Assembly: GCF_900149695.1 (NCBI RefSeq)
Contig: NZ_LT703004.1
Coordinates: 310,001-374,000, forward strand
Source of the DNA: Anderseniella sp. Alg231-50
GTDB lineage: Bacteria > Pseudomonadota > Alphaproteobacteria > Rhizobiales > Aestuariivirgaceae
Length of the DNA stretch: 64,000 bases
Direction of reading: 5' to 3'
Shown here: positions 1,679-19,652 of the stretch, piece after piece
Position numbering within the stretch: position 1 is the first letter of the stretch
Layout: each line of letters begins with the position of its first letter
The notes under the pieces: model-generated
What the model was told of the DNA's origin: nothing
Seen by the model: only the letters and a program-made list of their open reading frames with translations
The model's database searches: none
Position numbers and translations under genes: made by a program

Positions 1679-4216
1679 ATGGCCGCACCGGACATGAACA
1701 CACCTGTTCTGGAATGTAACAACGTCTCGATCTCGTACTATACGAGAGCCGGTGAAATACCCGCCGTGGTGGACTTCAATATGAAAGTGATGCCAGGCGA
1801 GGCGGTCGGCATTGTGGGTGAAAGCGGCTGTGGCAAGTCCACGGTTGCCCTCGCCATCATGCAGTACATGGGAAAGAACGGCGCCATTGTCGGCGGCGAG
1901 ATCAAGTTCATGGGACGCGACATGCGCACCATGTCGGAAGAAGAGTTGCGCGATATTCGCGGGTCGCGCATTTCGATGGTCTATCAGGAGCCAATGGCAT
2001 CCCTGAACCCGTCCATGCTGATCCGCGAACAGCTCAATGAAGTGCTGATTTTCCACGAAGGCATCAGTGACGAGGAAGCCTCCAAGCGGTCCATCGAAAT
2101 GCTGGATGCGGTGCGCCTGCCGGATCCTGAGCGATTGATGGATTCGTTCCCGCACCAGATATCAGGCGGCCAGCAGCAGCGCGTCGTCATTGCCATGGCG
2201 CTGCTGTCCAAGCCGCAATTACTGCTGCTGGATGAGCCGACCACCGCGCTCGACGTCACCGTCGAGGCAGGTGTGGTGGAACTGATCAAGGATATCTCGA
2301 AGCGCTTCGGCACGTCGATGATCTATATCTCGCACAACCTGGGCCTGATCCTGGAAACCTGCGACAAGATTGCCGTGATGTATTCCGGCGAGGCGGTTGA
2401 ATTCGGTTCGGTCAACCAGGTCTTCGATGAAATGCGCCACCCCTACACGCGTGGCCTGTTCAATTCCATTCCGCTGCCCGGTGCCGACCGGTATTCAAGG
2501 CCGCTGGTCCCGATCCGGGGACAGTTGCCGCTGCCGCACGAACGCCCGACAGGCTGCAATTTCGGTCCGCGCTGCGACCATTTCAAGGATGGTGTGTGCA
2601 ATGTAGAGGCTTTGCACATGCAAGAGGTTGCCGGGCAAAAAGGCCAACAGGTTCGCTGCGAGCGATATCTGAGCATCGACTGGGAAGCCGCCAAGCCGAA
2701 AGCCGTTGCCGGAGAGGGCGTCAACTACGGCAAGACCGTTCTGCAGGTAAAGAACATGCAGAAATATTACGAGGTTCACGACCGCTCGCTGAAGGCGCTG
2801 ATTTCTGGCAAGGCCTCCAAATTCGTGAAGGCAAATGAAAAGCTGGACTTCGAGGCTCGCGAAGCCGAAACCGTGGCAATCGTGGGCGAATCCGGCTGCG
2901 GCAAGTCAACTTTCGCCAAGGTGATGCTGGGCCTGGAGACCGCAACCGGCGGTGAAGTCATTCTCAACGGCCAGGAAATCGGGCAGATATCGGTCCACAA
3001 GCGCACGCCGCAAATGGTCGGTTCGATGCAGATGATCTTCCAGAACCCGTTTGAAACACTGAACCCGTCGCATACCGTCGGCAGTCAGATCAGTCGGGTG
3101 CTGCGCATGTTCGGCGTGGCAAAGAATAAGGAAGACGCGCTGGAGAAAACCTACAAGCTGCTTGATATGGTGAAGCTGCCGCGCGACTTCGCACAGCGTC
3201 GTCCACGCCAGTTGTCGGGCGGCCAGAAACAGCGCGTCGGCATTGCGCGTGCCTTTGCCGGCGAGGCCCAGGTGGTGGTTGCGGATGAACCGGTATCAGC
3301 GCTTGATGTGTCCGTGCAGGCTGCCGTGACCGGCCTTCTGACGGATATTCAGCGCGAACGGCGCACAACCATGCTGTTTATCTCGCATGACCTGTCGGTG
3401 GTGCGCTACCTCGCAGACCGTGTCGTGGTGATGTATCTCGGCCAGATCATGGAGCAGGGAAACACCGACGACATCTATTCACCGCCCTACCACCCGTACA
3501 CAGAAGCCCTGCTGTCGGCGGTACCGATTGCCGATACGTCGATCACCAAGAAGCACATCGTGCTCGAAGGCGAACTGCCGTCACCGATGAACCCGCCATC
3601 GGGTTGTCCGTTCCAGACCCGGTGCCCGCGCAAGATCGGCTCGATCTGCGAAACGGACCTGCCGGACGTCAAGGACCTGGGCAATGGCCACAAGATCATG
3701 TGCCACCTGAGTGAAGACGAGCTCAGGGCCATGGAACCTGTGATTGCGATGCCGTCGGACAAGAAGAAAAAGGCCACCGCTTCCACAAGCCCCGGACGTG
3801 CCAAGGCGGCACTTGCTGCAGCTTCGATCGCAACCGTGCCGGGATCGGCGGCGAAATCCGCCACGCCGGACAAACCGGCCGCAAAGGCCAAGGCCGCGAC
3901 CAAGAGCAAGCCTGCGAAAAAAGCTGCGGCCAAGAAACCGGCAGCAAAGAAACCGGCCGCAAAGAAAACCGCGGCCAGGAAAGCAGGCCCGGAGCGGCTC
4001 AAGAAAGCCCGTGGCAAGGCCGACGACCTGAAACTGATATCGGGCGTTGGACCGAAACTGGAGCAGACGCTCAACAAGCTGGGGTTCTGGCATTTCGACC
4101 AGATCGCCAGCTGGAAAAAGGCCGACATAGAGATTGTCGACGACGAGCTGTCGTTCAAGGGCCGTATCGAGCGGGACGACTGGATCAGGCAGGCCAAGGC
4201 ACTGGCACGCAAATAG
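1679..4216 (+). CDS. Fused double ATP-binding ABC transporter protein with C-terminal helix-hairpin-helix tail
   Basis: The 845-residue protein carries two complete ABC ATPases that correspond to DppD and DppF in one chain. The first Walker A is GESGCGKST at residues 47-55, with signature SGGQQQR and Walker B LLLLDEPTTALD. The second Walker A begins near residue 403, with LSGGQKQR and VVVADEPVSALD. Each half ends with the Cys-containing oligopeptide-transporter C-terminal domain (GCNFGPRCDHF; GCPFQTRCPRK). From about 694 to 780 there is a Lys/Ala/Pro low-complexity stretch with AAKKPAAKKP repeats. It is followed by a compact domain of about 60 residues starting DDLKLISGVGPKLEQTLNKLG. That domain resembles the H3TH-like module found at the C-terminus of some alphaproteobacterial NuoE proteins. 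ATPase function is secure; the tail is unusual and its role unknown. Confidence 0.93.
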   Translation: MAAPDMNTPVLECNNVSISYYTRAGEIPAVVDFNMKVMPGEAVGIVGESGCGKSTVALAIMQYMGKNGAIVGGEIKFMGRDMRTMSEEELRDIRGSRISMVYQEPMASLNPSMLIREQLNEVLIFHEGISDEEASKRSIEMLDAVRLPDPERLMDSFPHQISGGQQQRVVIAMALLSKPQLLLLDEPTTALDVTVEAGVVELIKDISKRFGTSMIYISHNLGLILETCDKIAVMYSGEAVEFGSVNQVFDEMRHPYTRGLFNSIPLPGADRYSRPLVPIRGQLPLPHERPTGCNFGPRCDHFKDGVCNVEALHMQEVAGQKGQQVRCERYLSIDWEAAKPKAVAGEGVNYGKTVLQVKNMQKYYEVHDRSLKALISGKASKFVKANEKLDFEAREAETVAIVGESGCGKSTFAKVMLGLETATGGEVILNGQEIGQISVHKRTPQMVGSMQMIFQNPFETLNPSHTVGSQISRVLRMFGVAKNKEDALEKTYKLLDMVKLPRDFAQRRPRQLSGGQKQRVGIARAFAGEAQVVVADEPVSALDVSVQAAVTGLLTDIQRERRTTMLFISHDLSVVRYLADRVVVMYLGQIMEQGNTDDIYSPPYHPYTEALLSAVPIADTSITKKHIVLEGELPSPMNPPSGCPFQTRCPRKIGSICETDLPDVKDLGNGHKIMCHLSEDELRAMEPVIAMPSDKKKKATASTSPGRAKAALAAASIATVPGSAAKSATPDKPAAKAKAATKSKPAKKAAAKKPAAKKPAAKKTAARKAGPERLKKARGKADDLKLISGVGPKLEQTLNKLGFWHFDQIASWKKADIEIVDDELSFKGRIERDDWIRQAKALARK

Positions 4217-4680: not shown

Positions 4681-5394
4681 TTATTTCAGCCCAACGACCG
4701 GATCAGGATCGATTTCGCGCAGCAGCTTGCGCCGCATGGCTCGGGCGAAGTCATCATAATCTTCCGCCACCTCGACGAAACTGCCGTCGCCGACGGCAAG
4801 CCGCGCACGGTAATAGTCATCCAGTTCCTTGTCTTCATTCAGGATAGCCAACCCGTTCAGGGTCACATTGCGGGCGATCGCCATGGAGCGTGCTTCGCTC
4901 AGCACCGTCGAATACTGGCGTGGCGGTGTTTCACGGCCGTCACCCGACACATCCACGACACGCCGGTCGGACCGGATGGCGTTTTCATCAATCGACCTGA
5001 TGGCGTTTGCGACACCGTCACCAATGCCGGTGCCGCCGACCTGGTTACGCGGCATGGCAGCAATAATGGCCGCTACCCGGTCCACTTCCGCCTGGTCGGA
5101 CAGGATGAACCATCCGGTTTCATCCTTTGGCCGCCGGGCTTCCGCCCATATGAGTACGTTCAAAGCGATGCGTTTGTTCGGGCCTGCCGTGATGGCCCTG
5201 AGAACGGCCGGATCGCGCAAGGCGGTAGCAATGCCAGACAGCTGCAATCTGTACTCCGCATCATCAACGCTGCCCGATGCATCCACCGCGAGCACCAGCT
5301 CGAGATCAACTTCGTCACTGGCCAGTGCGGTGTGCGTTGCAGCACTTGCCAGCACAATCAGCACTGCTGTCAAAGCGCCAAAAAACTGTCTCAC
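4681..5394 (-). CDS. DUF1194 secreted von Willebrand A-like protein (copy 1)
   Basis: DUF1194 proteins are exported proteins with a von Willebrand factor A fold and no known biochemical role. The MIDAS-type metal site VDASGSVD follows a cleavable signal peptide, and DVSGDGRETPP and LNGLAILNED are family motifs. I place the start at the GTG of VRQFFGALTAVLIV (237 residues), because a signal peptide then begins immediately and about 100 bp are left for a promoter facing the divergent oxidoreductase gene. A longer reading from ATG at 5490 would leave only 5 bp between the divergent genes and bury the signal peptide. Two paralogues occur in this window, at 20710 and 39142. Confidence 0.85.
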   Translation of the reverse strand: MRQFFGALTAVLIVLASAATHTALASDEVDLELVLAVDASGSVDDAEYRLQLSGIATALRDPAVLRAITAGPNKRIALNVLIWAEARRPKDETGWFILSDQAEVDRVAAIIAAMPRNQVGGTGIGDGVANAIRSIDENAIRSDRRVVDVSGDGRETPPRQYSTVLSEARSMAIARNVTLNGLAILNEDKELDDYYRARLAVGDGSFVEVAEDYDDFARAMRRKLLREIDPDPVVGLK

Positions 5395-5495
5395 AGGGCC
5401 ATGTTCCGAAAGCCGTTGTCGCTTGCAGGCATGACTTGGCTTACCGCTAAGTGATTGCATCGCTGCATGGAATATTTTCATCAAGGACATGGGTC

Positions 5496-7928
5496 ATGAA
5501 ATCGCATTATCGCGCAATTGTCATCGGCGGCGGCGTCGTCGGCTGTTCAATTCTGTATCACCTGACGAAAAAAGGATGGTCGGACATTCTGCTGATCGAG
5601 CGCGATGAACTGACGTCAGGCTCGACCTGGCATGCGGCCGGCGGCTTCCATACGCTCAACGGCGACCCCAACGTGGCCAAGCTGCAGGAATACACCATCA
5701 ACCTCTACAAGGAGATTGAAGAGGTCTCTGAACAGTCGACCGGGTGCCATGTCACCGGCGGGGTCATGCTGGTGTCCAACAAGGATCGTTTCGACTGGCT
5801 GAAAATGGCTCATGCCCGCAACAAATATCTCGGCGTGGATACCCGCATGATCTCGGTGGAAGAAGCGGCTGAACATTTCCCGCTGATGGACAAGGACCAG
5901 TTTGTCGGTGCCATGTGGCACCCGCTCGAAGGCCATCTTGATCCGTCAGGCACCACCCATGCCTATGCCAAGGCGGCGCGGGTGAACGGGGCTGAAATCG
6001 TCCGCCAGAACCGGGTTCTGGAAACCAACCAGCTGCCCGACGGCACCTGGTCGGTGGTGACCGAAAAAGGCACCGTTACCTGTGAACACCTGGTCAATGC
6101 GGGTGGCCTGTGGGGCCGCGAGGTGGGTCGCATGGCGGGCCTTGAACTGCCGGTTCTGTGCATGGCGCACCAGTACCTCATCACCGAGGAGATGGAAGAA
6201 GTCGTTGCCTACAACAACGCCAATGACGGCAAGGAAATAGTCCACGCCATTGATTTCGACGGCGAGATCTACATGCGCCAGGAAGGCAAGGGCATGCTGA
6301 TGGGTACCTACGAGCCCAATGGCATTCCATGGTCGCCAACCGAAGCGCCGTGGGACTTTTCCACCGAACTGCTGCCGCCGGACCTGGACCAGATTGCCGA
6401 TAACCTGGAGCGCGGGTTCCAGCACCATCCGGCTTTCCAGTCTGCCGGCATCAAGAACATCATTAATGGCCCGTTCGCCTTCGGGCCGGACGGCAATCCG
6501 CTGATCGGACCGATCCGCGGCCTGCAGAATTACTGGGTAGCGTGCGGTGTCATGGCCGGATTCAGCCAGGGCGGCGGTGTCGGCCTGGCGCTGAGCAACT
6601 GGATCGTTGATTCCGATCCCGGCTTCGATGTATGGGCCATGGATATTGCGCGTTACGGATCCTACGCCAACATGGCCTACACCAATGAAAAGGTGCGTGA
6701 AAACTATGGCCGGCGCTTCCGCATCATGTTCCCCAATGAGGAGCTTCCCGCCGCGCGACCGCTGCGCACCACACCATTGTATGACCGGTTCAAGGCCATG
6801 GGAGCGTTCTTTGGCGCATCCTACGGTATTGAAAGCGCCCTGTGGTTTGCGCCAGAAGGCAAGAAGGCGGAAGAAGCCGTTACCTTCCGGCGCTCCGAAG
6901 CCTTTGATATCGTTGGCGATGAATGCCGCGCGGTGCGCAATTCGGTCGGCGTGCTGGAAATCTCCGGCTATGCCAAGTACGAGATCACCGGTTCCGGCGC
7001 CGAAGGCTGGCTGTCCCACATGCTGGCCAACAAGGTGCCCGCCAAGGGCCGCATGACGCTGGCCCCGATGCTGAAGGAAGACGGCAAGCTGATCGGCGAT
7101 TTCTCTCTCGCCAAGGCGGACGATGAGCGCTTCTACATATTCGGGTCCGGTGCGGCGGAAAACTATCACATGCGCTGGTTCGAACAGCACCTGCCCGATA
7201 ACGGGTCGGTCAAGGTGCACGCCTTCGGGCTGGAAATGTGCGGCCTGTCCATTGCCGGGCCAAACTCGCAGAAACTGTTGGCGAAACTGACCAATACCGA
7301 CGTGTCGACCAGCGCCCTTCCCTTCATGTCATTCCGTGAAGTCGACCTGGGGCTGGTGCCGGCAAAACTGGCGCGCGTCAGCTTTACCGGTGACCTGGGC
7401 TATGAGATCTGGGTCGCTGCGGAGTACCTCACCACGCTGCACACCATGATCATGGAGACCGGCGCCGAGTTCGACATCAAGCCGGTTGGCGGCCGGGCGC
7501 TCATGTCACTGCGCCTGGAGAAGAACTGGGGAACATGGGCGCGGGAGTACCGCCCGATCTACGGACCTTTCGAAGCCGGTCTCGGCCGCTTCGTCGCCTT
7601 GTCGAAGAACGACTTCATCGGCCGCGAAGCAGCTGCCAAGGAAAAGGAAACCGGAGGCGAGCGCACCATGACCGTGTTCACCGTGCACGGCAATGAGGTA
7701 GACGTCATCGGTGACGAACCCATCTATCACAATGACAAGTGCGTCGGCTGGATTACCTCAGGCGGTTACGCCCACGCGGCGGACCAGTCGGTGGCGATCG
7801 GGTTCCTGCCAACCGAAATGGCCGGTGAGACCGATGGATTTGAGATTGAAATTCTCGGCCAAAACTACAAGGCTAGCCCGCAGAGGGATCCGTTGTTTGA
7901 TGCCGACGCTTCACACATGAGGTCTTAG
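5496..7928 (+). CDS. FAD-dependent oxidoreductase-GcvT fusion, dimethylglycine/sarcosine dehydrogenase type (copy 1)
   Basis: The 810-residue protein has an N-terminal DAO-type FAD domain with dinucleotide fingerprint GGGVVGCS at residues 11-18. The motif STWHAAGG includes His46, the position that carries covalently bound FAD in mammalian dimethylglycine and sarcosine dehydrogenases. The C-terminal half is a GcvT/aminomethyltransferase domain (FTGDLGYEIWVAAEY; LEKNWGTWAREYRPIYGP) that in the family hands the oxidised methyl group to tetrahydrofolate. Expected chemistry is oxidative N-demethylation of a methylated glycine-like amine. The ATG at 5496 is preferred over an upstream ATG at 5451 because AAGGA lies 8 bases upstream of it and the family N-terminus begins MKSHYRAIVIGGG. 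It is followed 26 bp later by a close paralogue. Confidence 0.9.
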   Translation: MKSHYRAIVIGGGVVGCSILYHLTKKGWSDILLIERDELTSGSTWHAAGGFHTLNGDPNVAKLQEYTINLYKEIEEVSEQSTGCHVTGGVMLVSNKDRFDWLKMAHARNKYLGVDTRMISVEEAAEHFPLMDKDQFVGAMWHPLEGHLDPSGTTHAYAKAARVNGAEIVRQNRVLETNQLPDGTWSVVTEKGTVTCEHLVNAGGLWGREVGRMAGLELPVLCMAHQYLITEEMEEVVAYNNANDGKEIVHAIDFDGEIYMRQEGKGMLMGTYEPNGIPWSPTEAPWDFSTELLPPDLDQIADNLERGFQHHPAFQSAGIKNIINGPFAFGPDGNPLIGPIRGLQNYWVACGVMAGFSQGGGVGLALSNWIVDSDPGFDVWAMDIARYGSYANMAYTNEKVRENYGRRFRIMFPNEELPAARPLRTTPLYDRFKAMGAFFGASYGIESALWFAPEGKKAEEAVTFRRSEAFDIVGDECRAVRNSVGVLEISGYAKYEITGSGAEGWLSHMLANKVPAKGRMTLAPMLKEDGKLIGDFSLAKADDERFYIFGSGAAENYHMRWFEQHLPDNGSVKVHAFGLEMCGLSIAGPNSQKLLAKLTNTDVSTSALPFMSFREVDLGLVPAKLARVSFTGDLGYEIWVAAEYLTTLHTMIMETGAEFDIKPVGGRALMSLRLEKNWGTWAREYRPIYGPFEAGLGRFVALSKNDFIGREAAAKEKETGGERTMTVFTVHGNEVDVIGDEPIYHNDKCVGWITSGGYAHAADQSVAIGFLPTEMAGETDGFEIEILGQNYKASPQRDPLFDADASHMRS

Positions 7929-7954: not shown

Positions 7955-10384
7955 ATGAAGTCGCATTACAGGGCCATAGTCATTGGCGGCGGCGTGGTTG
8001 GGTGCTCTGTGCTGTACCACCTGACCAAGGCGGGCTGGAGCGATGTCCTGCTGATCGAGCGGTCACAGCTGACATCCGGGTCGACGTGGCATGCAGCAGG
8101 CGGGTTTCTGACCCTGAACGGCGACCCCAACGTCGCCAAGCTGCAGGCTTACACAATTGAACTGTACGACGAGCTGGAACGCATCTCCGGACAATCCTGC
8201 GGCCTGCACCGGTGTGGCGGGCTGTTGATGGCAGACACCGAGGAACGCATGGACTGGCTCAAGATGGCCCATGCGCGGTCAGCCTATCTCGGGCTTGAAA
8301 CCGAGTTGCTGAGCCCGGCCGAAGCCAAGGCCCGCATGCCGCTGCTCGACGATGCCAAGTTCACCGGTGCCATGTGGGACGCAGCAGAAGGCAATCTTGA
8401 CCCGTCCGGCACGACCCATGCCTACGCCAAGTCGGCGCGCATCCAGGGCGCCGAGATCGTGCAGGAAAACCGTGTCGTCGAACTGACCCCGCGCGCCGAC
8501 GGCGGCTGGGATGTGGTGACCGAAAAAGGCACCGTCACTTGCGAGCACGTGATCAATTGCGGTGGCCTGTGGGCGCGTGAGGTTGGCCGCATGGTGGGCA
8601 TTGAACTGCCGGTGCTGGCCATGGAACACATGTACCTGGTCACCGACGACATGCCCGACGTCATCGCCTACAAGGAAGAACACGGCGCCGACATGCCGAT
8701 GATTGCCGACTTTGGCGCGGAGATCTACATGCGCCAGGAACGCGCCGGCATGTTGCTGGGCACCTATGAGCAGGACTGCCGGCCATGGTCGCCGAAGGAC
8801 ACGCCGTGGGACTTCGCAGCGGAACTGTTGCCGCCGGACCTGGATCGCATAACGCCTTCACTGGAAAAAACCTTCGAGAGCTACCCGGCCATGGGCCACG
8901 CCGGCATCAAGAATGTGGTCAATGGCCCGTTCACCTTTGCGCCTGACGGCAATCCGCTGGTAGGTCCGGTACAGGGACTGTCGAACTACTGGTGTGCCTG
9001 CGGGGTCATGGCGGGTTTCAGCCAGGGCGGCGGCGTCGGCCTGACGCTGGCCAACTGGATGGTGAACGGTGATCCCGGCGGCGACATCTGGGCCATGGAC
9101 ATAGCACGCTACGGCGACTGGGCAACCCGCAGTTATACCAATGAAAAGGTGCGCGAAAATTATTCCAAGCGGTTTTCCATCCGCTATCCGAACGAGGAAC
9201 GCCCGGCGGCGCGACCACACCAGACCACACCGCTGTATGACACCATGGTGAGCCAGGGCGCCGTCATGGGCGACAATTGGGGGCTCGAAGTGCCGTTATG
9301 GTTCGCACCTGAAGGTGTTGAGCCCGTCGACATCTTCTCGTTCCGCCGCTCCAATGATTTCGCCCATGTAAAGCGGGAAGTGCTGGGCACGCGTGAACGT
9401 GTCGGCGTCACCGAGATTGCAAATTTCGCCAAGTATGAATTCACCGGGCCGGGTGCGGAAAACTATCTGTCACGGCTGATGACCAACAAGATGCCGCGCA
9501 CCGGGCGCATCTGCCTGACACCGATGCTGAACGAGCAAGGCAAGCTGATCGGTGACTTCACCATCGCCAAGGCGGCGGAAGACAGGTTCATGATGTGGGG
9601 ATCGGCCCCGGCGCAGGTCTATCACATGCGCTGGTTTGAAAAACACCTGCCGGATGACCGGTCGGTGCGCGTCGAGCGGATCGACCTTGGTCTTGTCGGG
9701 CTGTCCATCGCGGGTCCAAAATCCCGTGACGTGCTGGCGGCACTGACCGATGAGGATCTGTCAAATGCCGGTTTCCGGTTCATGGATTACCGTGAAATCG
9801 ACGTGGCAAGTGTCCCCGCCAGGGTCAACCGCATCAGTTATACCGGTGACTTGGGGTATGAAATCTGGGTGAAACCGGAATATGAACGTCGGCTTTACAC
9901 GGCAATCATGCAGGCAGGCGAGGCCCACGGTATCGTCAATTTCGGCATGCGGGCGCTACTCACCATGCGGCTGGAAAAGAACTTCCCGACTTGGTACCGC
10001 GAACTGCGCCCGATCTACGGGCCATATGAAGCCGGCATGGATCGGTTTGTCGACCTCACCAAGAACGATTTCATCGGCCGCGGCAAGGCGCAGGAAGAAC
10101 ATGGCGGCGGCGGCAAGCTGGCACGAGTGACTTTTGTCGTGGATGCAGATGATGCGGACGTTATCGGCGATGAACCGGTTTCACATAATGGCAATGTTAT
10201 CGGCTGGGTAACGTCGGGCGGATACGGCCACTTCGTCGATGCTTCACTGGCGCAAGGCTATGTTCCAAAGCAACTGACTGCAGAAACATCCGGGTTTGAG
10301 ATCGAGATCATGGGCGAGATGCGCCCTGCACGCATCCAGCATGAACCGCTGTTCGACCCTGCCGGTGAACGGATGAGAGGGTAG
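7955..10384 (+). CDS. FAD-dependent oxidoreductase-GcvT fusion, dimethylglycine/sarcosine dehydrogenase type (copy 2)
   Basis: This 809-residue paralogue of the preceding gene has the same start (MKSHYRAIVIGGGVVGCS), the same covalent-FAD motif STWHAAGG with His46, and the same GcvT C-terminal domain (YTGDLGYEIWVKPEYERR; FPTWYRELRPIYGPYEAG). A ribosome site (CAGGAG) lies 9 bases before the ATG. The two copies are collinear over their full length but clearly diverged, for example HRCGGLLMAD here against HVTGGVMLVS in copy 1. This is an old tandem duplication that has probably split substrates, such as two successive demethylations or two different N-methyl compounds. The exact substrate is not readable from sequence. 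Confidence 0.9.
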   Translation: MKSHYRAIVIGGGVVGCSVLYHLTKAGWSDVLLIERSQLTSGSTWHAAGGFLTLNGDPNVAKLQAYTIELYDELERISGQSCGLHRCGGLLMADTEERMDWLKMAHARSAYLGLETELLSPAEAKARMPLLDDAKFTGAMWDAAEGNLDPSGTTHAYAKSARIQGAEIVQENRVVELTPRADGGWDVVTEKGTVTCEHVINCGGLWAREVGRMVGIELPVLAMEHMYLVTDDMPDVIAYKEEHGADMPMIADFGAEIYMRQERAGMLLGTYEQDCRPWSPKDTPWDFAAELLPPDLDRITPSLEKTFESYPAMGHAGIKNVVNGPFTFAPDGNPLVGPVQGLSNYWCACGVMAGFSQGGGVGLTLANWMVNGDPGGDIWAMDIARYGDWATRSYTNEKVRENYSKRFSIRYPNEERPAARPHQTTPLYDTMVSQGAVMGDNWGLEVPLWFAPEGVEPVDIFSFRRSNDFAHVKREVLGTRERVGVTEIANFAKYEFTGPGAENYLSRLMTNKMPRTGRICLTPMLNEQGKLIGDFTIAKAAEDRFMMWGSAPAQVYHMRWFEKHLPDDRSVRVERIDLGLVGLSIAGPKSRDVLAALTDEDLSNAGFRFMDYREIDVASVPARVNRISYTGDLGYEIWVKPEYERRLYTAIMQAGEAHGIVNFGMRALLTMRLEKNFPTWYRELRPIYGPYEAGMDRFVDLTKNDFIGRGKAQEEHGGGGKLARVTFVVDADDADVIGDEPVSHNGNVIGWVTSGGYGHFVDASLAQGYVPKQLTAETSGFEIEIMGEMRPARIQHEPLFDPAGERMRG

Positions 10385-10393
10385 TTCCAAATC

Positions 10394-11500
10394 ATGAAAA
10401 TCGCCAAACTGGAAACCTTTGCCAACGAATTCGTTGGTTTCGTACGGGTCACCACCGATACCGGCGACACAGGCTGGGGCCAGGTGTCTACCTATCATTC
10501 GGATATCACCGCGCAAATATTCCATCGCCAGGTGGCACCCTACTCGCTTGGCGAGGACGCTTACGATTTCGATGACCTGCTTGATCGTATTACCGAACGC
10601 GAACACAAGTTTCCGGGTTCCTACCTGCGCCGCGCCATGGCCGGGCTGGACACGGCATTATGGGACCTGCGCGGCCGGGTGGAAGGCAAACCTGTCGCGG
10701 CACTGCTCGGCGGTACGGCGGGACCGCTGCGCGCCTATGCGTCTTCCATGAAACGCGACATCACACCGGAAGATGAGGCTGCCCGGTTCGTCAAGCTGCG
10801 CGATGAGCTTGGCTTTGATGCGTTCAAGTTCCGCGTCGGTGCCGAGTGCGGCCGCGATGTGGATGAATGGCCGGGCCGCACCGAAGCCATTGTCTCCGTC
10901 GTGTGCAAGGCGCTGGGAGATGAAGCGGCCAAGCTGGTGGACGGCAATTCCGGGTTTTCCGCGGCACGTGCCATCGAAGTGGGCCGCGTGCTGGAAGCCG
11001 AAGGCGTTACGCACTTTGAAGAACCGTGTCCCTATTGGGAACCGGAGCAGACCAAGCGGGTAACCGACGCACTTGGAATTGATGTAACCGGCGGTGAGCA
11101 GGATTGCGACTTGTCCTGGTGGCGGCACACGATCGACATGCGCACGGTCGATGTCGTGCAACCGGACGTCATGTATATGGGCGGCATGAACCGAACGCTG
11201 CGTGTTGTGAAAATGGCCGCCGATGCCGGCCTGCCGTGCACGCCGCACTGCGCAAACCTTTCGCTGGTCACCTTGTGCACCATGCACCTGTTGCGCGCTA
11301 TTCCCAACGCCGGAAAGTACCTGGAATTCTCCATTGAAGGAGAGGACTACTACCCCTGGCAGGACGGTTTGTTTGTCGAAGATCCTTACACGATTGCCGA
11401 CGGCAAGGCGACGGTTACAGATGCGCCCGGCTGGGGTGTCGACATCAATCCGGCCTGGCTCGACAAGGCCACATACCAGGTAAGTGAGTTTGCAGCGTAA
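10394..11500 (+). CDS. Mandelate racemase/muconate lactonizing-family enzyme (enolase superfamily)
   Basis: The 368-residue enzyme has the enolase-superfamily layout: an N-terminal capping domain and a modified TIM barrel. Metal ligands are Asp183 (VDGNSG), Glu209 (FEEPCP) and Glu235 (GGEQD). The general-base candidates are Lys145 in a K-x-R motif (FKFRVG) and a His285/Asp258 dyad ([13 protein letters not shown]), which places it in the mandelate racemase subgroup. Members abstract a proton alpha to a carboxylate and act as racemases, epimerases or acid-sugar dehydratases. It starts 9 bp after the second demethylase-like gene. One attractive analogue is the 4-hydroxyproline-betaine 2-epimerase of marine alphaproteobacteria, but the K-x-R rather than K-x-K motif makes that uncertain. 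Confidence 0.88.
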
Positions 11501-11526: not shown

Positions 11527-12780
11527 ATGCTTGATGCCGTGTTCAGTGACGACCGCAAAAAATCCTATTTCAATCCTGAGGGCAAGGACAAGCCGATGCG
11601 CTCGCCGGTGCCGCATTCGGTACTGGTAAAGGCGCGCGACTATCGCCGCCAGCGCATGCTGGACCAGGTGATCAAGCACGATTGTGCTGCCATCTTGATG
11701 TATGACCCGCTCAACATCCGCTACACGTTCGACCTGTCCAACATGCAGTTGTGGGGCACGCACAATCCGTTTCACTACGCCATGCTGTTTGCCGACAGCC
11801 ATTCGATCAATTTCGAGTACCACGGTGCCGAACACTTGGCGGACGGTCTTGCAACCGTACGCGACATCAGGCCAGCCAAGAGCTGGTTCTATTTCTCTGC
11901 CGGCAACCGCCTGGATGAACGCGTCAACGCATGGGCCGATGAGGTGGTTGCCGAACTGAAAGCCCACGGCGGCGGCAATATGCGCCTGGCCGTCGACAAG
12001 CTGGAGCCAATGGGCACATTCGCCCTGGCGGAACGCGGGGTCACCATCGTCGAGGGCCAGGAGCTCACCGAACTGGCCCGCGAAATCAAGTCGGCAGACG
12101 AACTTGAACTGATGAAATGGACGATCCGTGTCTGCGAGGCGGGCATGGCGCGCATCTGGGAAAACTCGCTTCCCGGCAAGACCGAACAGGAAATCTGGGC
12201 CGAGCTTCATTATGAAAACATCCGCTCCGGCGGCGAGTGGATCGAAACCCGTCTGCTCACTATCGGCGAGCATTCCAATCCTTGGTTTTCCGAAGCTTCT
12301 GATTTCATTGCCAGCGAAGGTGACATCATCGCCTTTGATACGGACCTGATCGGACCTTACGGGTACTGCGCCGACATTTCGCGTACCTGGACCATCGGGC
12401 ATACCAAGTTCGATGCCAAGCAGCATGAACTGTACTCAGCCGCGCTTGAGCAGATCGAGCACAATTGCTCAATTCTCAAGGCCGGCATGACCGCACGGGA
12501 ATTCAACGAGAAGTCCTGGCAGATCCCCGAGAAGTACCAGCCGTGCCGGTACTCGGTGGCGCTGCACGGCGTTGGCCTGTGTGACGAGTACCCGTCCCTG
12601 CCGTTGCACCCGGACTTTGACAGAGCCTATGACTTCACCTTTGAGGAAAACAGCGTGATTTGCGTCGAAAGCCTGATCGGCGAAGAGGACGGAAAGGAAT
12701 GCGTCAAGCTCGAAACACAGGTGGTTGTAACCCCGAATGGCGTCGAGGCACTGGATACTTTCCCGTGGGAAGATATTTGA
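11527..12780 (+). CDS. M24-fold metalloprotein, DddP-like (candidate DMSP lyase)
   Basis: The 417-residue protein has a creatinase-type N-domain and a pita-bread M24 C-domain. Metal ligands are all present: Asp271, Asp273, Asp283, His347, Glu381 and Glu396. Their spacing (2, 10, 64, 34 and 15) agrees, within one residue, with the ligand numbering I recall for the DMSP lyase DddP (Asp295, Asp297, Asp307, His371, Glu406, Glu421). The DddP catalytic Asp377 and Tyr366 correspond to Asp353 in HGVGLCDE and Tyr342. Stretches such as DPLNIRY, NMQLW.THNPF, HGGGNMRLAVDK and GGEWIETRLL also match DddP. DddP cleaves dimethylsulfoniopropionate to DMS and acrylate; relatives without lyase activity and Xaa-Pro peptidases share the fold. 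It is the last gene of the operon, 26 bp after the enolase-family gene. Confidence 0.72.
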   Translation: MLDAVFSDDRKKSYFNPEGKDKPMRSPVPHSVLVKARDYRRQRMLDQVIKHDCAAILMYDPLNIRYTFDLSNMQLWGTHNPFHYAMLFADSHSINFEYHGAEHLADGLATVRDIRPAKSWFYFSAGNRLDERVNAWADEVVAELKAHGGGNMRLAVDKLEPMGTFALAERGVTIVEGQELTELAREIKSADELELMKWTIRVCEAGMARIWENSLPGKTEQEIWAELHYENIRSGGEWIETRLLTIGEHSNPWFSEASDFIASEGDIIAFDTDLIGPYGYCADISRTWTIGHTKFDAKQHELYSAALEQIEHNCSILKAGMTAREFNEKSWQIPEKYQPCRYSVALHGVGLCDEYPSLPLHPDFDRAYDFTFEENSVICVESLIGEEDGKECVKLETQVVVTPNGVEALDTFPWEDI

Positions 12781-14450: not shown

Positions 14451-15077
14451 CTAAACCAGAAGGGCGCGCTGCTTCACATCCTTCGTCCACACATATGCAC
14501 ACAACAACGGGTGCATCCCGACATTGGTGGCGTGCGGGACATAGGGCTCGTGCCAGATGGTTTCGCCCGGTTCGCGCGGGGAAAACTCCTCGTCGCGCAT
14601 CCGCCAGTCGCTCATGCCCGACAATACCCAGTACAACTCCGGGGCCGGATGCGAATGGTTGGGGTAATTCAGGCCAGGGCCCAGCAGGAACAGTCCCAGC
14701 AGAAAATCATCACCCGGATAAGCACCGTTCGGCCCGATGATCTCGGCATAGGCGTAATTGTCCATGTAATGGGGCTGGCCCATGGCTTCGTTCGAGTAGT
14801 TGGGGTTCTGGGCCCAGTGCAGGTCTTCCTCAACCGCTGCCAGCGATGCGGCCACATCCGGCGCGACCAATAAGGTCGAAGCGACCACATCCGGCAGAAA
14901 CCGGCAGGCCGGCAAGCGCCTCGGCGAAGGGGTTGTCAGTGCTGTTGCAGATGTATCCTGCTGAGCCAGGCGCGCCAGAGCCTCGTCAACACCGTCTTCA
15001 CCGGCATTGTTTGCCTGCAAGGTCGACCTGATTGCGCGGATCAGCCATTGTGCCGTGTCGTGGACATGCGATGTCAT
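14451..15077 (-). CDS. Cupin-fold DMSP lyase family protein, DddQ/DddL-like
   Basis: The 208-residue protein has a helical N-terminal half and a C-terminal cupin. The cupin metal motif is H141-x-H143-PAP-E147-L-Y149, followed by His182 in VPHATN. The order H-x3-E-x-Y and then His about 33 residues later matches the metal ligands and catalytic Tyr I recall for DMSP lyase DddQ (His125, Glu129, Tyr131, His163). The flanking GPGLNYPNHSHPAPELYWVL is typical of the DMSP-lyase cupin family, which cleaves dimethylsulfoniopropionate to DMS and acrylate. ATG at 15077 is chosen because GGGGAGAG lies just upstream; a longer frame to 15167 lacks such a site. A second, unrelated lyase candidate (DddP-like) lies 1.7 kb away. 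Substrate is inferred. Confidence 0.75.
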   Translation of the reverse strand: MTSHVHDTAQWLIRAIRSTLQANNAGEDGVDEALARLAQQDTSATALTTPSPRRLPACRFLPDVVASTLLVAPDVAASLAAVEEDLHWAQNPNYSNEAMGQPHYMDNYAYAEIIGPNGAYPGDDFLLGLFLLGPGLNYPNHSHPAPELYWVLSGMSDWRMRDEEFSPREPGETIWHEPYVPHATNVGMHPLLCAYVWTKDVKQRALLV

Positions 15078-15265
15078 GTGCTGCTCTCCCCCAATACCAA
15101 AGGCCGATGCTCCCACACAATCGATACCGTGTCCTGCCCCCTGTCCGACAGTAAAATTCACCAACAAGATTAACGCTGGCGGGTTTTCAGCAACCGCTTT
15201 TCAGATCATTGAAACCGGTCCATGCTGGTACCAGTTATTTCCACCAGCCAGGGTCAGGTGAAATC

Positions 15266-16588
15266 ATGGACGCAATCGACTTCGTACTGGGCCTTGAGGC
15301 ATCTCGCATCCCGGCAACCGCACGTCATCACGCCACCCGAACCCTGATCGACACGCTGGGAGTGGCAGCCGCGGCAACACAAACGGACAATTCACGTATT
15401 TTGCGTGACTTTGCCAGCACGGCTTTCGGCGCACCGGGCAAGGCGGCAAGGCTGTTGTTCGACGGACGCGCCGTTTCCCTGCCGGGCGCCGGGTTTGCCA
15501 ATTCGGGGTCCATCGATTCACTTGACGCTCATGACGGCCAGAAGAGCACCAAGGGCCATATGGGCGTGGTCGTCATCCCTGCCCTGTTTGCATTTGCAGA
15601 AGGTGAGATACCTGTGTCCGGCAGGGAGTTCATGACCCGGCTGGTGATCGGCTACGAGATTGCGACACGGGCCGGGCTGGCGCTGCATGCAAGCGTATCG
15701 GATTACCACACATCCGGGGCGTGGAACGCGGTTGCTGCTGCAGCCATCGGCGCACGGGCCCTGAAGCTTGATGCCGACTGGACCCGGCACGCGCTCGGCA
15801 TCGCCGAATACAATGGACCGCGCTCGCAGATGATGCGCTGCATCGATCACCCGACCATGGTCAAGGACGGCGCGACCTGGGGCGGCTTTACCGGCATCGC
15901 GGCTGCACAACTCGCACAGCTCGGCCACACCGGTGCACCGGCCGTCACCATGGAGAACCCGGACCTGGCATCGTACTGGAACGACCTCGGCGGGCGCTGG
16001 TATGTCAGCGACCAGTACGTCAAGCTCTACCCCGTGTGTCGCTGGGCGCAACCGGCCATCGCGGCTGCCTTGTCCCTGAGCGACCGGTTTGATGTGGCAG
16101 ACATATCCAGCATCCATATCGAGACATTTCACCAGGCAAAGCGCCTGCCGCTGGCGGAGCCGGAGAACACCGAACAGGCGCAGTATTCCATCAAGTTTCC
16201 GGTTGCTGCCGCCCTGGTGCGCGGGCGTATCGGCGTGGCAGAAGTAACCGGACCGGCGCTGCAGGACCCTGACATATTGCGGTTGGCCAACATGATCGAA
16301 GTGACAGAAGACGACGAAGCCAATGCGGCCTTTCCCGCAGACCGCCTGGCCCGCGTCCGCATATCACTGGCCGACGGGCGGACGCATGAAAGCGCGATGA
16401 TGAAGGCGGTCGGTGACCCGGAAAATCCGATCAGCGACGGCGACCTTCATGCCAAGTTCACCAGCCTCGCCGCACCGGTGCTGGGTGAGCGCCGGGCTGC
16501 CCGGTTGCTTGAAACGTGCAACGGGCTCTGGGAGGCTGATACCGCTTCAGACCTGGTTGAGCAGGCAATGCAACCGATTTCAGACTAG
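15266..16588 (+). CDS. MmgE/PrpD family protein
   Basis: The 440-residue protein has the all-helical MmgE/PrpD fold signatures: RHHATRTLIDTLGVAAAA near the N-terminus, SLDAHDGQKSTKGH (the active-site-like Asp/His region), HTSGAWNAVAAAAIGARAL and VKLYPVCRWAQPAI. Relatives include 2-methylcitrate dehydratase, cis-aconitate decarboxylase and iminodisuccinate epimerase, so the reaction is probably a dehydration, decarboxylation or epimerisation of a polycarboxylate. ATG at 15266 is chosen (GGTCAGGTGA upstream, family-like MDAIDFVLGL). The gene is divergent from the cupin gene with 188 bp between starts, and its stop overlaps the convergent flavin oxidoreductase stop. A link to propionate or acrylate metabolism is possible but unproven. 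Confidence 0.88.
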   Translation: MDAIDFVLGLEASRIPATARHHATRTLIDTLGVAAAATQTDNSRILRDFASTAFGAPGKAARLLFDGRAVSLPGAGFANSGSIDSLDAHDGQKSTKGHMGVVVIPALFAFAEGEIPVSGREFMTRLVIGYEIATRAGLALHASVSDYHTSGAWNAVAAAAIGARALKLDADWTRHALGIAEYNGPRSQMMRCIDHPTMVKDGATWGGFTGIAAAQLAQLGHTGAPAVTMENPDLASYWNDLGGRWYVSDQYVKLYPVCRWAQPAIAAALSLSDRFDVADISSIHIETFHQAKRLPLAEPENTEQAQYSIKFPVAAALVRGRIGVAEVTGPALQDPDILRLANMIEVTEDDEANAAFPADRLARVRISLADGRTHESAMMKAVGDPENPISDGDLHAKFTSLAAPVLGERRAARLLETCNGLWEADTASDLVEQAMQPISD

Positions 16589-18594
16589 GCGATCGCCAGT
16601 GCTGCCTTGCGGCCTTCGTAGATCGCCATGTGAGCCTTGCGCGGGGCGTTGCAGTCGCCGGCCACGGTGAACGGCGGGCAATCGCCGAGTGCCTGGATGT
16701 CGTCGGCAAACTCCGTGTTGGGGCTGGCCACGGTGGCAAGGACCAGGGTTTCAAAATTCTGTTCGAAGGTCTCACCGGTCAACAGGTTGATAAAGCGCGC
16801 TACAGAGCCTTCATTATCCGGTTTGCCCCATGACTGCAGCGCGGTGTCTGTCAACGCCACGCCGCCGTGGCGCGCAAATCGCGCGCGCGCCACATCGTCT
16901 GCCCCGGTTCCTGAAAGTTCTGCCGCCAATACGCCGTTGGCCGTCATGGCGGTCACCTTGTGACCGGCCTCGGCCAGGTATAGTGCCGTACCAATACCGC
17001 GCCAGGAATGCAGGTCGTCAAGCACCAGCACCCGCTCGCCGATCATCGCGCCGTTCTCGAGAACGGTGTGATAGCTGATGACATTCGCCTCGTCATGGCC
17101 CGGCAGCACATCGTTCATCGGCAAGGCGCGCTGGAACCCTGACGTTACCGGCTTGATGCCGGTTGCCGCAATGATGTGATCGGGGTGAAGGTGGCGTACC
17201 GTCAGCGGTGTTGCCGCTTCACCAAGCTTCACATCAACACCCAGGCGCTCCAGTTCATGGCCATACCATTTTATGTGTTCAGCAATTCTCGATCGTGTCG
17301 GCTGGCGCCCGGCAAGGTGCCACTGGCCGCCAATCATCGGACCGCGCTCGATCAGTGTGACCTTGTGGCCAGCTTCCGCTGCAACCCGTGCCGCTTCCAG
17401 GCCGGCCGGCCCGGCTCCCACCACCAGTACCGATTTGCGGCGTTCGGTCTTGGCTATCTTGTCGCCGCGCCATTCCCATTCGCGTCCCACGGACGGGTTG
17501 ACCAGGCAGGAAATCCAGTAGTCCTTGTAGCGGCGCGCAATGCACTGCTGATTGCAGTGAATGCAAGGCCGGATACTGGCTCCGTTGCCGGCTTGTGCCT
17601 TGTTGGCCAGATGCGGGTCGGCAATCTGGGCGCGCACCATGGAGCAGGTGTCGGCCTGGCCGGTAGAAATGACCTGTTCGGCCTTTTCCGGTGAATGAAT
17701 ACCGGCTTCCGCCTGCACCCGGGCATGGCGCATTTGATGCTTGAGATGGTCGGACAGATGTGCGCCTTCGACACCTTCGTGGATGTGGGTCGGGATAATC
17801 GGCTGGTCGCGGAAATAACTGCCGGTGCCGCAGGTCACATAATCCATCAGGCCGCGCTCGTCGTGCCAGGCGGCAATCTCGCTCAAGGCTTCCAGCGACA
17901 AAGCCGGTTCGGCCATCTGATCGACTGACACCGCCATGCCGATGATGAAGTCGGAACCGCACGCCTCGCGAATGCGCTTGAGGATTTCAGCCGAAAACCG
18001 CACCCGGTTTTCCAGGCTGCCGCCCCACTTGTCATCGCGCCGGTTGGACCAGGGCGTCCAGAACTGATCGACCAGGGAATGATAAGCGGCAAAGATTTCG
18101 ATGCCGTCAAAGCCTGCCTGCTGGGCGCGGTCGGCAGCAGCTACAAACGAGGCAATCAGTTCCTCGATCTCCGCCTCGCTGACCGCATGACCACCGTCTG
18201 AATCATGCATTGACGGCATGCCCGAGGCCGACCAATTGGCGTGGAAGGAGTTGGCGCCGTCACCATGTTGCCCGACATGGTAAAGCTGGTGCAGCATTAC
18301 CGTGTCATAGTTGCTGCAGGCCTCGTTAATCTTGCGCAGCGGCGCGATAATGGCGTCGTCATTGGCGCGGAAATTGCCGCGTGTCAGCACGCCGGATGCA
18401 TGCACCGGGACCGGCTCCACCACGATCATACCGGCGCCCCCCTTGGCGCGTTCGACGTAGTAGGCCTTGGTTCGGCGCGATGGCAGGCCATTCTCGGCCA
18501 TGTTGTTGGTATGGGCACCAAACACAATGCGGTTTTTCAACCGCTTGTGATTGATTGTAATCGGCGTAAACAAATGCGGATATGGATTGCTCAT
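16585..18594 (-). CDS. NADH:flavin oxidoreductase, trimethylamine dehydrogenase/DgcA-like
   Basis: The 669-residue enzyme has an N-terminal FMN TIM barrel of the Old Yellow Enzyme type (residues 1 to about 340), a [4Fe-4S] motif C-x2-C-x3-C-x11-C (CIHCNQQC...WISC), and a C-terminal FAD/NAD(P)-binding module (VVGAGPAGLEAARVAAEAGH). This is the layout of trimethylamine dehydrogenase, 2,4-dienoyl-CoA reductase, N-methylproline demethylase and the dimethylglycine catabolism protein DgcA. Close motifs (GAHTNNMAENGLPS) favour the amine/betaine demethylase side. I choose MSNPYPHLFTPITI as the start although its ribosome site is weak. A longer frame to 18732 overlaps the LysR stop by ATGA and would add 46 low-complexity residues. 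It fits the betaine-like catabolic neighbourhood. Confidence 0.87.
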   Translation of the reverse strand: MSNPYPHLFTPITINHKRLKNRIVFGAHTNNMAENGLPSRRTKAYYVERAKGGAGMIVVEPVPVHASGVLTRGNFRANDDAIIAPLRKINEACSNYDTVMLHQLYHVGQHGDGANSFHANWSASGMPSMHDSDGGHAVSEAEIEELIASFVAAADRAQQAGFDGIEIFAAYHSLVDQFWTPWSNRRDDKWGGSLENRVRFSAEILKRIREACGSDFIIGMAVSVDQMAEPALSLEALSEIAAWHDERGLMDYVTCGTGSYFRDQPIIPTHIHEGVEGAHLSDHLKHQMRHARVQAEAGIHSPEKAEQVISTGQADTCSMVRAQIADPHLANKAQAGNGASIRPCIHCNQQCIARRYKDYWISCLVNPSVGREWEWRGDKIAKTERRKSVLVVGAGPAGLEAARVAAEAGHKVTLIERGPMIGGQWHLAGRQPTRSRIAEHIKWYGHELERLGVDVKLGEAATPLTVRHLHPDHIIAATGIKPVTSGFQRALPMNDVLPGHDEANVISYHTVLENGAMIGERVLVLDDLHSWRGIGTALYLAEAGHKVTAMTANGVLAAELSGTGADDVARARFARHGGVALTDTALQSWGKPDNEGSVARFINLLTGETFEQNFETLVLATVASPNTEFADDIQALGDCPPFTVAGDCNAPRKAHMAIYEGRKAALAIA

Positions 18595-18728
18595 GGGAAA
18601 TTCAAATTCAGGTTGCCGTTGGAAATCAATTTCAAGTCGCCGTCGAAATTCAAGTCTCAGGGTGCCGCCCGTCACATTATTGTCATAGTTTTTCCACTGA
18701 TTTGCCAAGTCCTCGTTGCAATTTTTTC

Positions 18729-19652
18729 TCATTTCGGCTCAAAATCAACGGTCCATGGCGGTTTCGGGCGATATAGTTCTGCGATCCAGTCCATAAAACT
18801 GCGCACTTTCAAAGGCTCATAAAGCTTGCCGGCGCACAGGGCATAGATACCCAGTACACCCCCCGACCAGTCCGGAAGCACCCGCACCAGCTTGCCCGAT
18901 GCAATGTCCCGGTTGGCAATGAAGTCCGGCTGCAGTGCAAGCCCGCCTCCCGCAATGGCAATTTCTTCTATGGCATCACCGCTGTTGGCCGAGACCGCCG
19001 GCGATATACGCACCTGTTCAAGCGTGCCTTTACCGTCACGCAGCGACCATACATTGCCTTCATGGCCAAAAGTGTACCCAAGGCAACGATGGTCGATCAG
19101 GGCTTCCGGCGTTTCCGGGCAGCCATGGCTTGCAATGTAGCCGGGGCTCGCGCACAGGACCACTTCAACAGCGGCTATGCGCCTGGCAATCAGGTTGGAA
19201 TCCGCCAGCTTGCCGGTAATGCGGATCGCGACGTCGAACCCCTCTTCAACCAGATCCACGGTACGGTCATTCAGCGATATGTCCACGGCGACGTTGGGGT
19301 TTGCCGACGTGTACTGCCTGAGATAGGGCGCCACATGGCGCACCCCGAATGACATGGGCGCCGACAGCGCAAGCCGGCCCTGCGGGGTCAGGGTCTGAAG
19401 GCCGGCAACCCGGTCTGCCTCGTCAAGCTGTGCCAGAATCTCCCTGGCGCGTTCAATGTAGGCAGCGCCCGTGCTGGTCAGGCTGAGCGAGCGGGTTGTG
19501 CGGTTGAGCAGACGGGCGCCGAGATAGGCTTCAAGATCAGCCACATGGCGCGATGCCATATTGCGTGAAAGACCGAGAGCCTCAGCCGCCGCTGCGAAAC
19601 TGCCCTGATCGACAATGGTGACAAAAACCTCAATGGCGCGAAGACGATCCAT
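18729..19652 (-). CDS. LysR-family transcriptional regulator
   Basis: The 307-residue regulator has an N-terminal winged helix (RAIEVFVTIVDQGSFAAAAEALGLSRNMASRHVADLEAYLGARLLNRTTRSLSLT region, residues 5-60) and a periplasmic-binding-protein-like effector domain. The sequence belongs to the CrgA/AaeR-like LysR group. Its ATG lies inside a near-perfect 27-bp palindrome in the 109-bp gap to the divergent doxX-like gene, so autoregulation and control of doxX-VOC are likely. It is also upstream of, and on the same strand as, the NADH:flavin oxidoreductase gene, which it may co-express with or regulate. Confidence 0.92.
   Translation of the reverse strand: MDRLRAIEVFVTIVDQGSFAAAAEALGLSRNMASRHVADLEAYLGARLLNRTTRSLSLTSTGAAYIERAREILAQLDEADRVAGLQTLTPQGRLALSAPMSFGVRHVAPYLRQYTSANPNVAVDISLNDRTVDLVEEGFDVAIRITGKLADSNLIARRIAAVEVVLCASPGYIASHGCPETPEALIDHRCLGYTFGHEGNVWSLRDGKGTLEQVRISPAVSANSGDAIEEIAIAGGGLALQPDFIANRDIASGKLVRVLPDWSGGVLGIYALCAGKLYEPLKVRSFMDWIAELYRPKPPWTVDFEPK

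Follow-up and report, generated by a model that had tools for sequence, protein, structure and literature searches.

A DddP-like M24-fold metalloenzyme of Anderseniella sp. Alg231-50 belongs to a clade separate from DddP and has a putative role in betaine breakdown

The window analysed here, a stretch of 64,000 nucleotides from Anderseniella sp. Alg231-50, contains at 11527-12780 (+) an open reading frame with an ATG start that encodes a DddP-like M24-fold metalloenzyme of 417 amino acids, designated P0001. The protein falls into a clade of relatives, clade A, that is related to DddP but separate from it, and clade-A genes recurrently lie beside genes for demethylases and oxygenases. A role of P0001 in betaine catabolism is likely, and we give about even chances to the proposal as a whole, that this member of a separate clade acts as a putative enzyme in the breakdown of an N-methylated carboxylate of the betaine type.

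The catalytic residues of P0001 are those of DddP. In an alignment of 169 sequences, D295, D297, D307, H371, E406 and E421 of RlDddP (4rzy) map one-for-one to D271, D273, D283, H347, E381 and E396 of P0001, RlDddP Y366 and D377 correspond to Y342 and D353, and RlDddP W95 is W76. An earlier sequence-only reading had named all six metal ligands and the Tyr/Asp pair at exactly these numbers, and both sets are confirmed. Judged by its ligands, P0001 is expected to be a metalloenzyme that holds two metals. DddP structures 4b28 and 4rzy are its top PDB matches (E around 1e-93), and its AlphaFold model (mean pLDDT 89.4) has a predicted fold whose top Foldseek match is again 4b28 (40% identity, rmsd 1.9), with Xaa-Pro peptidases ranking after DddP at about 20% identity. 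P0001 shares the M24 domain and fold with M24 peptidases (prolidase, aminopeptidase P), creatinase and the ectoine hydrolase DoeA, but it is only 14-23% identical to such proteins in the structural matches shown and has lost both catalytic His of M24 peptidases and hydrolases. Their places are taken by F254 and D353, the Phe and Asp expected of a DddP. The review PMC5395565, in the part relevant here, reports the His replacement as the change behind DddP and a sixth ligand as what sets DddP-type enzymes apart from other M24 enzymes. Neither catalytic His occurs in any of the 61 clade-A sequences: position 254 is Tyr in 34, Phe in 25 and Met in two, and position 353 is Asp in 60, with one gap.

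These residues do not single out DddP. The DddP model matches 78 of 385 genomes of the class at E<=1e-60, and only 12 of them exceed its cut-off. The 169 aligned sequences, a non-random sample, were drawn from matches to P0001, to a P0001-led alignment or to the DddP model, either from the top of ranked lists (the best 80 of 560 in one case) or by hand. BLAST matches with fewer than 250 aligned residues, such as a broken copy at locus L126, and one M24 fragment of 266 amino acids were left out. The sample divides in the tree into clade A (61), the DddP clade (36), an intermediate group, Bint (13), and other relatives, the rest group (59). Each of the six ligands is present in at least 168 of the 169 sequences, as is Tyr342; Asp353 is found in 156 (47 of 59 in the rest group) and the Trp of W76/W95 in 153, so that none of them is diagnostic. 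In terms of sequence, the ligands, the Tyr/Asp pair and the His replacement are marks of the wider DddP-like family and not of DddP alone. Because most of that family has them, the catalytic residues cannot identify a DMSP lyase. Within the same sample, loci L165, L207 and L211 carry tandem pairs of DddP-like genes that fall into two parallel lineages of three sequences each, as if an old duplication had been kept together. A clade-A gene from the record of an actinomycete (Streptomyces sp. B-S-A6, L113) groups with Rhizobium sequences, by either horizontal transfer or contamination.

In the tree of all 169 sequences, P0001 lies within clade A (SH-aLRT 100), apart from the DddP clade (99), which includes 4b28, 4rzy and the Oceanimonas and Oceanisphaera proteins. 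A second tree of 54 sequences, from which 11 long-branch or distant sequences and near-copies were omitted, supports clade A and the DddP clade with 100/99 and 100/100; it is unrooted and its deepest branches are weak. The AU test rejects trees in which P0001 is forced together with DddP (p-AU 3.4e-5) or in which DddP and all 12 clade-A sequences form one clade (p-AU 0.005), for groups that were already visible in the first tree beforehand. P0001 reaches 396.6 bits against the NCBIfam DddP model NF043017, below the equivalog cut-off of 600, which is passed by the proteins of Oceanisphaera (626.5 bits; 46% identical to P0001), Paracoccus yeei (853 bits) and Loktanella (870 bits). Note that several members of the DddP clade score 509-592 bits, so the cut-off does not coincide with the limit of the clade.

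Sequence marks agree with this division. They were derived in the present analysis and not taken from a paper. An N-terminal xEIGPT motif occurs in 29 of the 36 DddP-clade sequences (two sequences of the clade are PDB cores without the N-terminus) and in none of the other 133, P0001 included. RlDddP Ala103 is conserved in 36 of 36 DddP-clade sequences and its counterpart Tyr84 in 61 of 61 of clade A; RlDddP Ala407 is found in 31 of 36 and its counterpart Ser382 in 58 of 61. Further differences between RlDddP and P0001 are Phe155/Trp136, Cys217/Trp198, Gly282/Ser258 and His333/Gln309. From the alignment we infer a possible functional role for Tyr84, Ser382 and the other marks. The rest group mostly shares the clade-A state (Tyr at 84 in 47 of 59, Ser at 382 in 51 of 59), and because clade A thus agrees with most of these relatives, the alignment suggests that DddP is the changed branch at both positions. 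An assignment of P0001 to DddP therefore fails on clade, cut-off and marks alike. The sequence-only reading had named a grouping with non-lyase relatives as an outcome that would speak against it; P0001 does group with relatives of DddP that are not verified lyases, which is not to say that these are established as non-lyases.

P0001 ends a tight same-strand run of four genes, as the earlier reading had described: two DMGDH-like genes, an enolase-superfamily gene and P0001, separated by 26, 9 and 26 bases. The first two genes (5451-7928 and 7955-10384, both +) encode putative FAD/THF N-demethylases that are 60% identical to each other and have the same DAO, FAO_M, GCV_T and GCV_T_C architecture. 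Their top PDB matches are dimethylglycine dehydrogenases (E 1.8e-157 and 3.3e-174, respectively), from which no substrate follows. The true start of the first gene may lie further in, because its listed GTG start overlaps an opposite-strand gene for a DUF1194 (VWA-like) protein (4681-5490, -). Such DUF1194 genes recur near clade-A genes, being present within 8 kb of 10 of 47 compared with one of 40 control regions, and the window has another at 20710-21453 (-). The third gene of the run (10394-11500, +) encodes an enolase-superfamily (MR_MLE) protein; its close PDB relatives 3t9p, 3t8q, 3u4f and 3tcs bear family names only. It was considered as a key to the substrate and dropped. The protein matches 26 of 372 genomes of the class at E<=1e-100 (28 matches including that of the window), no DddP-like or DMGDH gene was seen in the roughly 1.5 kb shown on each side of the other 27, and the MR_MLE proteins of other clusters, with 26-28% identity where BLAST aligned them, are not orthologous to it.

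Upstream, the window starts within the gene for permease 1 of an Opp/Dpp-type transporter (1-705, +; complete at L005:9635-10705), followed by permease 2 (718-1674, +) and a fused OppD/OppF-type ABC ATPase (1679-4216, +). Downstream of P0001 lie a cupin gene (14451-15167, -), discussed below, and, divergent from it, a gene for an MmgE/PrpD-family protein (15209-16588, +) that is kept in three same-genus loci. These are followed by genes for an NADH:flavin oxidoreductase with a dinucleotide-binding domain (16585-18732, -) and a LysR-family regulator (18729-19652, -). The order of the P0001 cluster is retained in L069 and L070, where the DddP-like gene is 96% identical, and in L071 (73% identity), where an additional gene precedes the DddP-like one. 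Because these three same-genus loci retain the order, the cluster is more than chance. Promoter and terminator scans yielded nothing exceeding shuffled sequences.

For the family as a whole, neighbouring genes were scored by BLAST against labelled reference genes and compared with 40 control regions from 20 large contigs of 17 searched genomes; three draws were replaced by hand, and one control region falls inside the window, 17 kb from P0001. All such counts are to be read with the proviso that the references stem partly, and those for Fe/2OG oxygenases wholly, from clade-A loci, which favours clade A. Counts within 8 kb were restricted to loci with at least 10 kb of total flank (47 of 61 for clade A, 7 of 13 for Bint, 26 of 34 for the DddP clade and 40 of 59 for the rest group). 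A demethylation gene was found within this distance of 26 of 47 clade-A genes, 4 of 7 Bint genes, 7 of 26 DddP-clade genes and 21 of 40 rest genes, compared with 6 of 40 control regions. After collapsing at 80% identity, the values were 10 of 23 for clade A (p=0.015), 15 of 34 for the rest group (p=0.006), 3 of 6 for Bint (p=0.08) and 7 of 21 for the DddP clade (p=0.09) against the same 6 of 40; at 70% identity, clade A retained 6 of 13 (p=0.03). By this measure the excess in clade A is modest. Direct adjacency (less than 300 bp, same strand) of a demethylase-type or Fe/2OG gene gave 19 of 33 collapsed clade-A genes (p=8e-8 versus control, p=0.0002 versus DddP), compared with 3 of 10 for Bint, 3 of 27 for the DddP clade, 10 of 49 for the rest group and 1 of 40 for the control. 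Without Fe/2OG and Rieske genes the clade-A value is 6 of 33, a small excess over the control (1 of 40, p=0.03) and none over DddP (p=0.35). The gene in the window is not among the 19, as the MR_MLE gene stands directly next to it and the DMGDH-like genes are two and three genes upstream. The sequence-only reading had further held that this context differs from described ddd loci. This holds against what PMC3338564, in the part that concerns dddP loci, says of them, but a few genes of the DddP clade itself also adjoin a Rieske, Sox, DMGDH-like or MR_MLE gene.

Clade A is also coupled with a HalD/BesD-family Fe/2OG oxygenase: 17 of its 61 genes are immediately preceded by a same-strand gene for such an enzyme, nine of them with a gap of 0 bp. 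Loci with a directly upstream Fe/2OG gene include L104, L105, L108, L111, L112, L122, L127, L128, L131, L085 and L071, among others. Eight such proteins, two of which come from rest loci, were scanned with Pfam, and each matched HalD. The gene adjoins 2 of 59 rest genes, whereas the DddP clade, Bint and the 40 controls have no such gene within 8 kb. While the shared Pfam family links these proteins to the HalD/BesD-family amino-acid oxygenases 6nie and 7u6i, they are very distant from these solved halogenases (E 3e-4 and 0.17) and show an aligned HxD..H pattern, which is of the hydroxylase type; a halogenase role was rejected because of this pattern. In L071, whose cluster is the one seen in the window, the oxygenase gene separates the MR_MLE gene from the DddP-like gene. 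No copy was found in the window itself.

The genes directly adjacent in clade A span the MttB, Bmt, DMGDH, Rieske-plus-reductase and Fe/2OG oxygenase families, and named records give examples of such neighbourhoods. In Terrarubrum flagellatum (64% identity) the series runs from genes for sarcosine oxidase subunits through those for a DMGDH-like enzyme, Bmt, an MttB-family protein and an MR_MLE protein to the DddP-like gene. The S. meliloti relative (37% identity) has genes for MttB, an isochorismatase, a glycine-betaine transporter and an MR_MLE protein in its vicinity. Five Rhizobium plasmid records (57-60% identity) show the series LysR regulator, Rieske oxygenase, reductase and DddP-like gene, and all five have glutathione-formaldehyde genes. 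Three of them (BT03, TAL182, CIAT 652) also encode a GlxA/AraC-type regulator, a 4-hydroxyproline epimerase/proline racemase, a ProXWV-type transporter and putA, and in three (WSM1689, TAL182, AB2/73) the annotation of one gene reads DMSP lyase or DMSP-lyase family. The clade-A gene of WSM1689 is matched by 77 plasmid records, 76 of them from Rhizobium. Public annotation names the Rhizobium DddP-like protein an Xaa-Pro peptidase family protein in four records and a putative proline dipeptidase in the fifth; since both catalytic His are gone, we disfavour a pure Xaa-Pro peptidase. These neighbours belong to families known from betaine demethylation pathways (GbcAB/Stc2 Rieske enzymes, MttB/MtgB, Bmt/MtgE, DMGDH, sarcosine oxidase). 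In the text consulted of a paper on glycine betaine (PMC12478193), the terms 'DddP', 'M24' and 'peptidase' do not occur and no such step is named. In L100 and L106, the lineages nearest to the genus of the window, a conserved protein is encoded directly upstream of the DddP-like gene (277 amino acids in L106; 65% identity between both), for which the L106 copy gave no Pfam match and only chance-level PDB matches (E around 0.5). An AcnX hydroxyproline-dehydratase-like neighbour was set aside, as it occurs at a single locus (L105) and reaches 193 of 700 bits.

The cupin gene mentioned above lies 1.7 kb downstream of P0001, and its true start may be the ATG at residue 30. Its product belongs to the DddQ family (Pfam DMSP_lyase, PF16867, E 1.6e-32), has DddQ structures among its five PDB matches and gave no NCBIfam match. 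Like the DMSP lyase DddQ (4la2, 5jso) and the relative 5cu1, it carries the set Y120/H123/H125/E129/Y131/H163 (the first five located with a Y..H.H....E.Y-type pattern, the last His by eye), for which the residue list was taken from the relevant part of PMC4437653. By this pattern it is of a putative DMSP lyase type. Unlike DddQ, PF16867 cupins occur in betaine-type clusters in the genome of the window and in Rhizobium, and the pair of cupin and DddP-like genes recurs in the three same-genus loci and in some of the Rhizobium clusters. Within 8 kb, PF16867 cupins accompany 12 of 47 clade-A genes, none of 73 other family genes and none of 40 controls; the collapsed values are 4 of 23 (p=0.015) and, at 70% identity, 2 of 13 (p=0.057). 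Besides this gene, the host genome has a second PF16867 gene over the cut-off, located on a different contig, and one AcuI/YhdH homologue over the cut-off, and its best DmdA score, 380.5 bits, is below the required 410. The DmdA model has 17 matches in this genome alone, of which 13 lie in open frames of at least 800 amino acids, i.e. many DMGDH/sarcosine-oxidase-like enzymes.

How might an enzyme of this kind act on a betaine? For DddP, the portions of PMC5395565 and PMC4108388 concerned with its mechanism propose that DMSP is bound through its carboxylate at the metals and that an Asp removes the alpha-proton. By analogy, the metal pair of P0001 would bind the substrate carboxylate, D353 would take the alpha-proton, and Y342 and W76 would hold the onium end. 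The outcome could be elimination of the beta-group, with cleavage of a C-N or C-O bond, or a proton shift. In this genome the two DMGDH-like enzymes would then transfer methyl groups of the tertiary or secondary amine so formed to folate, and in other bacteria the clade-A enzyme would be paired with alternative oxidisers or demethylases of the Rieske, MttB, Fe/2OG oxygenase or DMGDH type. A precedent for C-N chemistry is given by the cupin DMSP lyase DddK, described in the pertinent part of PMC12582016 as adding amines to acrylate. The earlier suggestion of 'DMSP or a betaine analogue' as substrate thus fares differently in its two halves: the neighbours across clade A speak for a betaine, while tree, cut-off and marks speak against DddP and DMSP. 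Against the betaine reading itself count the MR_MLE relatives without a link near the 27 other matches and the small excess that is left without Fe/2OG and Rieske genes. To our knowledge, moreover, the established routes for glycine betaine or proline betaine need no such enzyme. In a library of open-licence papers we found nothing that joins DddP, glycine betaine and dimethylglycine dehydrogenase, nothing that joins an M24 peptidase with a betaine operon and, for 'DddP-like', only a single paper, which concerns primers.

The same cluster could also be explained by other functions. P0001 might be an M24-type hydrolase that splits a peptide-, creatine- or ectoine-like conjugate with an amide, ester or amidine linkage, imported by Opp, and hands an N-methyl amino acid to the DMGDH-like enzymes. 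The cluster encodes an Opp/Dpp-type importer, and such genes are also found near 6 of 23 collapsed clade-A genes, which fits this explanation, as do the fold common to creatinase, DoeA and prolidases and the isochorismatase-family gene adjoining the S. meliloti relative. We nevertheless regard hydrolysis as rather unlikely, as all 61 clade-A sequences lack both M24 catalytic His, a change proposed in the cited part of PMC5395565 to have ended peptidase activity in DddP, and as neighbours of the MttB, Rieske and ProXWV types speak for a quaternary substrate. That P0001 is a lyase releasing DMS from DMSP (or DMSO from DMSOP) together with acrylate, with the demethylase neighbours serving related osmolytes, appears improbable. 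It is consistent with the complete DddP residue set, the nearby cupin with the DddQ pattern and the AcuI/YhdH homologue. The fungal FgDddP, which is absent from our trees, shares only 32% identity with RdDddP and yet makes DMS according to the section on it in PMC4108388; sequence distance by itself is thus no argument against lyase activity. Set against this are the position of P0001 outside the DddP clade and below the equivalog cut-off, the missing EIGPT motif, Ala103 and Ala407, the lack of a DmdA over the cut-off in the host genome and the commonness of genes about 57-60% identical on Rhizobium plasmids. R. leguminosarum J391, which served as a host in that work, has been reported, in the part of PMC10686828 that deals with it, to be unable to catabolise DMSOP, which bears on P0001 only if this strain carries a clade-A gene. 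DMSP lysis as a side activity is a different matter, and P0001 may have it.

With a proton shift instead of an elimination, P0001 would racemise, epimerise or otherwise isomerise a betaine at its alpha-proton, and the MR_MLE neighbour would work at a different centre or on a different substrate. HpbD acts as an epimerase on hydroxyproline betaine, and a search of the same open-licence library for HpbD and hydroxyproline betaine found nothing. An isomerase would use the same alpha-proton machinery. Hydroxyproline epimerase-family genes are neighbours in Rhizobium, the AcnX-like gene is a neighbour in L105, and in both the window and Terrarubrum an MR_MLE gene adjoins the DddP-like gene, with just 26% identity between these two MR_MLE genes. 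We know of no M24-fold enzyme that is a racemase, however, and the MR_MLE protein would make P0001 redundant, and we consider this explanation very unlikely. The betaine-breakdown proposal is the one we prefer.

A broader idea can be put forward only tentatively and at low confidence: DddP may be one branch of a large metal-dependent family that breaks or rearranges N-betaines. Clade A would then provide a new step that eliminates a C-N (or C-O) bond in hydroxylated or partly demethylated betaines and is coupled to Fe/2OG, Rieske, MttB or DMGDH enzymes and to DddQ-like cupins. Whatever the substrate, the accepted residue signature of DddP is common to a wider family that is also present in forest-soil and root-nodule bacteria, often beside betaine demethylases. 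This calls for caution, as about 65% of the ddd genes in the sea are dddP according to the relevant passage of PMC10686828 and DMSP lysis should not be called from the catalytic set alone; sequence marks now separate DddP from its relatives, and the origin of two DMSP-lyase folds becomes testable. If the broader idea is true, these two folds of roseobacters would have been recruited from nitrogen-betaine catabolism.
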